Shown piece after piece: positions 34,501-37,500 of a stretch of DNA of 64,000 nt. Each line of letters begins with the position of its first letter. Position 1 is the first letter of the stretch. This stretch comes from Notolepis coatsorum (Eukaryota > Chordata > Actinopteri > Aulopiformes > Paralepididae), in the NCBI GenBank assembly GCA_963971535.1, contig OZ020592.1, positions 126,343,320-126,407,319 on the forward strand, read 5' to 3'. The notes under the pieces are model-generated. The model did no database searches, was not told where the DNA came from, and was given only the letters and a program-made list of their open reading frames with translations. Position numbers and translations under genes: made by a program.

Positions 34501-37500
34501 ATGTGATGTATAGATTGGGGGGAGATGGTAGCATGTAACGGTGCCAGAGAGGTCGAAGTGCATGCTGACGGTGGAAGCAGGAGATGGTGGTTCAGTAGAG
34601 CAGGGTGATTGTGAGCACCACACTGAGCAGGGCCGAATGTTGACATTCCTTGTAAGAACACATTGATAAGAGCGAGTGTGGGCCCACAGAGCAGGGCGGA
34701 GAGAGGTTCATCTTAATGAAACAGTAATGAAACGTTTTGAAATGTGTGAAAGGTTATTAGCAGTTGTCATGACAGCGCTGCACATGACAACCAGAAAGGG
34801 GTGGGCCGTCGTTGCTATGACGAAGATCCTATAAAGCTGACAGTGGTTCCGGGTAGGGCAGACTAAAATCTGACTGAGACTAAGAGGGAAGAAACCAGAA
34901 GAGACTCTCTCCTCTCATCACGGAGAGGGGGGGGGGGGGGAGGAAGAATGACACATCATCATTAGCTTCGGCTAACGCGAGGAGGGTTTAGGCTAAAGAC
35001 CAGGCCTGACCACCATTGGACTGAATAGCAGGAGGACGATAGACTGAACACACCGAAAGATCATTAGAATAGACTTTTCAAGGACAATACAATCTGTTAA
35101 CATCTGAGCTGAGGCTTCTGTTTATCAAATAAACAACGCTTCTCCTTGTAAGATATTACGCTGTGTCAAAGTGTCGAATTCTTACGAAGGTGGAGAATTA
35201 TTATGGTTTGCAGATCGCACTAACGGGGAGAGATAAGGATTGTATCAGCCAGTATCTGAGACGTCAGGACCATTAAAAGTACACAACGCAGAGGAGTGGA
35301 TGGAGAGAGGATAACACAAGAAGACGTGATACTGGCCAGATTGATCAGAATATAACAATATGCACTGTCTCTGATCAAATAAACTGAGTAAATTAAAATT
35401 GAAAACGAGGCTCTCCCTCAACGAGTCCTGAGTTTAAATAGACTCTCCTCCTGCCGCCAGGTGGACTTTGGCTTCGCGAAGAAGATCCCGTGTGGCCAGA
35501 AGACCTGGACCTTCTGCGGGACTCCAGAGTACGTGGCTCCAGAGATCATCCTCAACAAAGGACACAACACCAGCGTGGACTTCTGGTCTCTGGGCATCCT
35601 GGTCTTCGAGCTCCTGACTGGCAGGTCGGTACCGACGCTCACCTGGACTTTCAGTCTGAACGACAAGGACTGAGACTAAACCGACCTCTCAGTCTGATCA
35701 TAACGATGAGGACTGAGTCCCTAAACCGACCTCTCAGTCTGATCATAACAAGGACTGAGTCATTAAACCGACCTCTCAGTCTGGTCATAACAACAAGGAC
35801 TGAGTCACTAAACCGACCTCTCAGTCTGGTCATAACAACAAGGACTGAGTCACTAAACCGACCTCTCAGTCTGATCATAACAACAAGGACTGAGTCCCTA
35901 AACCGACCTCTCAGTCTGGTCATAACAACAAGGACTGAGTCACTAAACCGACCTCTCAGTCTGGTCATAACAACAAGGACTGAGTCACTAAACCGACCTC
36001 TCAGTCTGGTCATAACAACAAGGACTGAGTCACTAAACCGACCTCTCAGTCTGGTCATAACGACGAGGACTGAGTCCCTAAACCGACCTCTCAGTCTGAT
36101 CATAACGACAAGGACTGAGTCACTAAACCGACCTCTCAGTCTGGTCATAACGACGAGGACTGAGTCACTAAACCAATCTCTCCGTCCCACAGTCCTCCGT
36201 TCTCAGGCAGTGACCAGATGATGACGTACACCTTCATTCTGAAAGGCATAGAGAAGATGGACTTCCCCAAGAAGATCTCCAAGAGACCTGAGGACCTCAT
36301 ACGCAAACTGTGCCGGTAGGACTACATATCCCAGAGACCTGAGGACCTTGTACGCAAGCTGTGCAGGTAGGACTACATATCCCAGAGACCTGAGGACCTC
36401 ATACACAAGCTGTGCAGGTAGGACTACATATCCCAGAGACCTGAGGACCTCATACGCAAACTGTGCAGGTAGGACTACATATCCCAGAGACCTGAGGACC
36501 TCATACGCAAGCTGTGCAGGTAGGACTACATATCCCAGAGATCTGAGGACCTCATACGCAAACTGTGCAGGTAGGACTACATATCCCAGAGACCTGAGGA
36601 CCTCATACGCAAGCTGTGCAGGTAGGACTACATATCCCAGAGACATGAGGACCTCATACACAAGCTGTGCAGGTAGGACTACATATCCCAGAGACCTGAG
36701 GGCCTCGTACACAAGCTGTGCAGGTAGGACTACATATCCAGTACATGTAATAGGTATAGACTGAGCAGGTAGGACATACTTACATTTGTAAGAGATTTTG
36801 TTTATGTATGATATTGTGAGAAAGGGGCAGGACTAGATATGCATTTGCTTCCTTCTGCTCCTTCTCAAACTAATTTGTTTATCATTTAATGAAGAATGTA
36901 AGATTTCATTTTAAATTTGTTTCTTTAGTTTATAATTTTTTATTGTGTTTTTATATGGTTGACTGTTCGAGATAAAATAAACTTAACTCAACTTAACATA
37001 TCCAGTACATGTAATAGGTATAGACTGAGCAGGTAGGACATACATATCAAGTACAGGTAATAGGTATAGACAGGGCCGGATTAACGACCGGGCCGACCGG
37101 GCCGCGGCCCGTGGGCCTCTAGTGATAATGAGAATTATTTTTTTTATTTATTTTTTTTGGAGGCCCCTCGTCACTAGAGGCCCCAACCTTTTCTTTTTAT
37201 TTTTTTTTAACTTTAATTTTTTATTGTTTGAGGCCACTCGTCACTATAGAGGCCTTTTGGAGGCCCCTCGTTACAAGAGGCCCCACATTTTCTTTTATTT
37301 TTTTTTTACTTTAATTTTTAATTTTTTTGGAGGCCGCTCGTCACTCGAGGCCTTTTGGAGGCCCCTCGTCACTAGAGGCCCCAAATATTTGTTTATTTTT
37401 TTTTAACTTTTATTTTAAACATTTTTGGAGGCCCCTCGTCACTAGAGGCCCCACATTTTATTCAATTTTTTTTCTTATTTTGGAGATCGATGTCATACTG

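Follow-up and report, generated by a model that had tools for sequence, protein, structure and literature searches.

A 51-bp minisatellite spanning the exon 12 donor of a PRKG2-like gene

The window, meaning the whole 64-kb stretch of DNA that was analysed, carries 15 exons of a single gene between positions 1395 and 48374, which join into an open frame of 545 codons followed by a stop (tblastn and joined frame), the openness of this frame being partly a matter of choice in that GT/AG junctions were selected manually so as to suit the protein match. Exon numbers are those within the window, with the gene read from 1395 onward. The product has a cyclic nucleotide-binding domain (PF00027) and a protein kinase domain (PF00069), and a comparison of exons 11 and 12 with solved structures puts cGMP-dependent protein kinase 1 at the top (the best 3 of 60 PDB rows shown, 1325 having matched). 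When C-terminal stretches of types 2 and 1 were compared, type 2 scored better, a comparison by score rather than by tree. Stretches taken to be those of PRKG2 (cGMP-dependent kinase II) match along the gene. The label PRKG2-like, for a putative cGMP-dependent kinase, is used because of this nearest solved relative and of the type 2 stretches that match along the gene. The principal features are collected in Table 1.

Table 1. Coordinates of exons, tandem arrays and insertions discussed in the text (positions within the window; a slash marks an exon-intron boundary or its counterpart in a repeat unit)
Feature	Position	Strand	Description
Exon 6	13058-13156	+	Donor CAA/gtaggt, phase 2; read-through AAG TAG
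Exon 6 array	13152-15230	+	46-bp units, some of 51 bp; unit holds the last 5 exonic bases and the donor
Exon 9 donor array	21349-21381	+	11 bp x 3; donor CAG/gtagga, two further copies AG/gcagga
Intron 11 array	35659-36186	+	45-bp units; fills most of the 568-base intron 11
Exon 12	36193-36315	+	Kinase C-lobe; ends in phase 2, LCR (CG/A); tblastn and joined open frame
Copy 0 of the 51-bp unit	36282-36332	+	Last 34 bases of exon 12, true donor CCG/gtagga at 36315/36316, first 17 intron bases
First stop with any downstream donor	36317-36319	+	TAG at once (CGG TAG)
Eight complete extra copies	36333-36740	+	Each with CAG/gtagga
Last "exonic" bases of the eight copies	36366, 36417, 36468, 36519, 36570, 36621, 36672, 36723	+
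Related unit B	36732-36782	+	CAG/gtagga at 36768; followed by an insertion of about 0.2 kb
Further B units	36996-37071	+	CAG/gtagga at 37032; end at the 3.8-kb insertion
3.8-kb insertion	37072-40863		GGTATAGAC at both sides; inverted ends; lies within intron 12 repeat units
B-like units past the insertion	40864-40932	+	CAG/gtagga at 40879; shortly upstream of exon 13
Exon 13	40953-41015	+	Acceptor tatttcacag/A

At the 3' end of exon 12 lies a tandem array that Tandem Repeats Finder places at 36278-36739 with a period of 51, 9.1 copies and 95% matches. Its units run head to tail and are highly similar, as in a minisatellite (units of about 10-100 bp), and the repeat spans the junction, each unit being made up of exon end, donor and intron start with the first GT at 36316. 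The earlier note had described a 51-bp unit of 34 exonic and 17 intronic bases with about eight extra donors, and this description stands, there being eight complete copies to 36740. Taking copy 3 as reference, the other seven of the eight are identical at 46-50 of 51 positions. Copy 0, which belongs to the exon, departs from the consensus at two positions, one of them the -2 position of the donor where it has C and all eight copies have A. A search of the window for the ten bases GCAGGTAGGA gives 11 hits on the + strand, eight in the array and three in related units further into the intron (36765, 37029 and 40876), and 0 on the - strand; a chance origin of the repeated donor was rejected on this difference. 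Since exon 13 begins with A (40953), the codon split between exons 12 and 13 reads CG/A and encodes Arg, and because AG/A is also an Arg codon the C to A difference at donor -2 is silent in the protein.

The consequence of splicing from any donor other than the first can be read directly from the frame. With donors 1-8 the frame stays open through the residues LCR and is closed by TAG after 471 of the 545 coded residues, such that of the nine donors only donor 0 preserves the 545-codon frame. The reading TGC CGG TAG, the truncation of the kinase C-lobe and the dependence of the gene on choosing the first donor, all put forward in the earlier note, follow from this reading frame. The truncating stop is the TAG that directly follows the true junction and is part of the true donor's own sequence (CG/G TAG); the 51-bp period being divisible by three, it recurs in frame in the later copies. 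The notion that these stops specially guard each extra donor did not hold up and was rejected: read-through runs straight into a stop at 6 of the 9 phase 2 donors of the gene, as is ordinary when a phase 2 frame runs into GTAG, GTAA or GTGA, and the stop after the exon 12 donor is a by-product of phase 2 and not a safeguard made for the array. With donors 1-8 the stop lies 180-537 nt upstream of the last exon junction. Nonsense-mediated decay is triggered when a stop precedes the last junction by more than about 50-55 nt, a distance exceeded here, and from the sequence, transcripts using decoys 1-8 would be expected to undergo mRNA decay.

Donor strength was scored with a vertebrate weight matrix and by pairing with the U1 5' end. 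By the weight matrix the true exon 12 donor scores 6.32, fourth from the bottom among the 14 donors of the gene, and each of the eight copies 8.53, while the U1 duplexes are -7.9 kcal/mol for the true donor and -10.7 kcal/mol for the copies. The true donor is thus the first and the weakest of the nine by both scores, which goes beyond the row of near-identical donors claimed earlier; the repeat units are indeed alike, but the key site differs, CCG/gtagga at the true junction against CAG/gtagga in 8/8 copies. In the window as a whole 96.1% of GTs score below the true exon 12 donor and 99.2% below the copies, and of the 245 GTs in intron 12 as a whole 20 score at least as high as the true donor, nine of these 20 lying among the 22 GTs at or just past the array. 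In DOK7 minigenes the intron-proximal of two donors, which is also the stronger, is preferred, with SRSF1 modulating the choice (PMC5585400). Some leakage to the decoy donors of exon 12 is plausible by analogy, because the competition at DOK7 as there described favours the intron-proximal, stronger site (PMC5585400).

Beyond the 51-bp copies, intron 12 contains related B units with a period of about 46 bp and three extra CAG/gtagga sites. Assuming an 8-base duplication, the ends of the 3.8-kb insertion that lies among these units read, by eye, CAGGGCCGGATTAA and, inverted, CAAGGCCAGATTAA, ends which are presumably those of a hAT-type DNA transposon. Before the 3.8-kb and 0.2-kb insertions intron 12 probably consisted mostly of repeat units. 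Elsewhere in the gene a reverse transcriptase frame (RVT_1) is found on the - strand of intron 9 (26847-28142) and a weak endonuclease match just below the Pfam cut-off at 29895-30788, which together are probably a non-LTR retrotransposon.

The donor-spanning arrangement is not unique in the gene, exon 6 having a larger case that the earlier note missed. As at exon 12, the repeat unit of the exon 6 array includes the exon end and the donor, the donor is in phase 2 and read-through meets TAG immediately; the exon 6 unit differs in being 46 bp long with only 5 exonic bases, and in the number of donor sites, 45 occurrences of AAGTAGGT including the true one, of which 41 (the true one counted) are identical and four, with AAA, slightly weaker. 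The same array also contains 32 TACTAAC branch-site-like words and 38 copies of CCCAGCCAAGTAGGT. A small form of the layout is present at the exon 9 donor. Arrays also end 3 bases upstream of exon 1, 22 upstream of exon 3, 5 upstream of exon 8 and 6 upstream of exon 12. The array before exon 3 (7810-8726) has 43-bp units that hold the acceptor-like tctctgtcctcag and is possibly a row of decoy acceptors. Within exon 7 a 24-bp coding minisatellite (15549-15676) encodes LIQPLSPD repeats in frame, in the linker that joins the cyclic-nucleotide domain to the kinase domain, intron 13 holds a 4.4-kb array with an 18/37-bp unit in which several frames are open (42774-47182), and a 26-bp array (48387-48961) begins 12 bases past the stop codon, presumably in the 3' untranslated region.

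Tandem Repeats Finder returned 67 rows for the window, which were merged by hand into a list of arrays with periods below 10 dropped, and the nearness of these arrays to exon edges was compared with three placement nulls. With arrays placed anywhere, exons included (null A; 30 arrays, 29 exon edges), edges within 10, 30 and 60 bp of an array numbered 6, 8 and 10 against means of 8.8, 9.5 and 10.5, with no excess (p 0.87, 0.75 and 0.62). With exon overlap capped at 40 nt (null B; 29 arrays, the coding array of exon 7 dropped), 6, 7 and 9 were observed at the same distances against 1.3, 1.9 and 3.0 (p 0.001, 0.005 and 0.003). With every array reduced to a single unit and placed in collapsed introns (null C; 29 arrays, 30 intron ends, the exon 7 array again dropped), 6, 8 and 10 were observed against 2.5, 3.6 and 5.0 (p 0.008, 0.003 and 0.001), although overlap or contact with an exon under null C was seen in only 3 cases against 1.9 (p 0.26). 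That arrays lie nearer exon edges than two of the three nulls predict is left unexplained by random birth, but the nulls partly disagree and this is one gene chosen after the fact, such that an association of arrays with exon edges is suggestive only.

The exon 12 array is probably a minisatellite that arose by tandem duplication across the exon 12/intron 12 junction, the exon-proximal copy staying in use. A 51-bp segment over the junction would have been duplicated in tandem through slippage or unequal exchange and then have grown to nine units, the nine units in 51-bp register with few scattered substitutions supporting such a duplication. The copy joined to the rest of exon 12 would have remained the sole coding copy, with the other eight becoming intronic and carrying decoy donors. 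Duplications within exons would mostly be lost, while one starting at the exon end would leave the exon intact and its extra copies in the intron. A general minisatellite process would suffice, because the same layout recurs at exon 6 and in small form at exon 9 and because the window is rich in tandem repeats. The array could persist as long as the first donor is used often enough, though it is the weakest of the row, and any leakage to the decoys would give stop-bearing, decaying transcripts and amount to a splicing load rather than a device.

Evidence for selection on the decoy donors was sought in the variant alleles of the repeat units. In copies 1-8, 0 of 8 variant alleles fall in the 9-base donor (chance 0.21), giving no clear sign either way. 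At exon 6, 1 of 10 variant alleles in 37 46-bp units falls in the donor (chance of one or fewer 0.39), a count that leaves out the last unit and the seven 51-bp units and in which donor invariance is given by construction, the units having been located by exact AAGTAGGT; the unbroken 46/51 spacing indicates that none was missed. In copies 1-8, seven of the eight variant alleles are found within columns 1-26 and the half with the donor hardly varies, which goes against a passive array but is given little weight with eight alleles. The higher scores of all eight decoys by both measures likewise go against it, and a passive array of stronger decoys might be costly by analogy, because the decoys outscore the true donor and because an intron-proximal, stronger donor is preferred in DOK7 minigenes (PMC5585400). 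RNA structure as a selector of the donor was rejected, the fold of exon 12 with three copies being no better than that of shuffled sequences (z 0.13), and a search of the whole window with Rfam at the gathering threshold gave no match.

It is quite possible, if rather doubtful, that the decoys are silent and that splicing always starts from donor 0, owing to exon definition, first-come commitment or enhancers within exon 12. With respect to origin this belongs under the tandem duplication favoured above, from which it differs in the amount of leakage. An intact frame and a gene that looks functional across its 15 exons are in keeping with silence, but donor 0 has the lowest score of the nine, and the duplicated segment takes in the final 34 bases of the exon together with whatever enhancers these may contain. 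An unlikely proposal is that the array is a dial for unproductive splicing, in which the stronger decoys divert a share of transcripts to nonsense-mediated decay and copy number sets the dosage of the kinase. It would draw on the eight decoys above the true donor, each leading to the same early stop well before the last junction, and on the human CBS VNTR, reportedly tied to reduced CBS activity in a 2001 title by Lievers et al. The variant alleles show no clear sign of selection on the decoy donors, however, and the same layout with 45 donor sites at exon 6 suggests a by-product of repeat growth. A wider picture, in which splice junctions are preferred birth sites of minisatellites in the genome, rows of decoys (8 at exon 12 and 44 at exon 6) tune unproductive splicing and the AG/GT array of exon 12 could correct itself via a second splicing step, is very unlikely as a whole.

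Assemblies often get the number of copies in such arrays wrong, yet several copies have substitutions of their own and many arrays of other units are present in the window, making an assembly artefact, with the repeat collapsed or inflated, highly improbable. Scarcely credible is ratchet (recursive) splicing, in which joining donor 0 to the CAG of a copy would restore an identical donor, and a second step from donor 0 to the CAG of a decoy would turn transcripts spliced there into normal mRNA: the AG/GT geometry is exact, with CAG/GTAGGA in 8/8 copies and the 3 B units and no AG at the true donor, and the pyrimidine count of the copies (9/17) matches the counts at exons 4 and 14, the poorest two of the true acceptors, but as acceptors the eight copies score -2.0 to -2.3 by a weight matrix, where the 15 true ones range from 1.86 to 8.0, -2.3 being near the 69th percentile of AGs in the window and true acceptors at or above the 95th, the other AG of the unit (catatcccag) at -1.3 is also under all true acceptors, and the exon 6 array with its AA/GT could not work in this way.

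Human CBS has a 31-bp VNTR at exon 13/intron 13. Going by its name, c.1444_1467+7(16_21), this repeat comprises 24 exonic and 7 intronic bases; there are substitutions between units, and alleles of 16-19 and 21 copies are tabulated in control chromosomes (PMC2630376). The exon 12 array resembles it in that the tandem unit takes in the exon end, the donor and the first intron bases, in the many copies and in the substitutions between units, differing in a 51-bp (34 + 17) rather than 31-bp (24 + 7) unit and in nine units seen in one sequence rather than 16-21 copies polymorphic in people. A second CBS variant, c.844_845ins68, is a tandem duplication across an intron-exon junction that, according to the same paper, is tolerated since splicing settles on one of the duplicated sites (PMC2630376). 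Unlike the exon 12 array this is a single duplication, on the intron 7/exon 8 side, for which the paper speaks of "splice donor sites" and the title that it cites of a 3' splice site (PMC2630376). Intron gain through tandem duplication of AGGT segments is described for the Rogers model, potato RdRp and 24-bp repeats in fission yeast (PMC4974935). By analogy this is the process nearest to the exon 12 array, in that tandem AG/GT copies supply new splice sites, except that at exon 12 the intron was already present and a new intron is not part of the case. Among the matches listed, judged by titles and the openings of abstracts and with most subscription journals outside the coverage, no repeat spanning a donor was found besides that of CBS. 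Compared with the CBS repeat as described above, the exon 12 array has an architecture already known from human and is a clean new example, ordinary in kind.

Its value is that of a clean test bed for competition between donors; by itself it is no new system. The exon 12 array is a natural experiment in which nine donors stand in one register, the functional one is weaker by one base and the stop is readable, and the exon 6 array is a second, larger case in the same gene, with near-equal donor sites. Measuring the use of the decoys would test distance against strength in 5' splice site competition, and would also show whether the growth of repeats across splice junctions imposes a splicing load.
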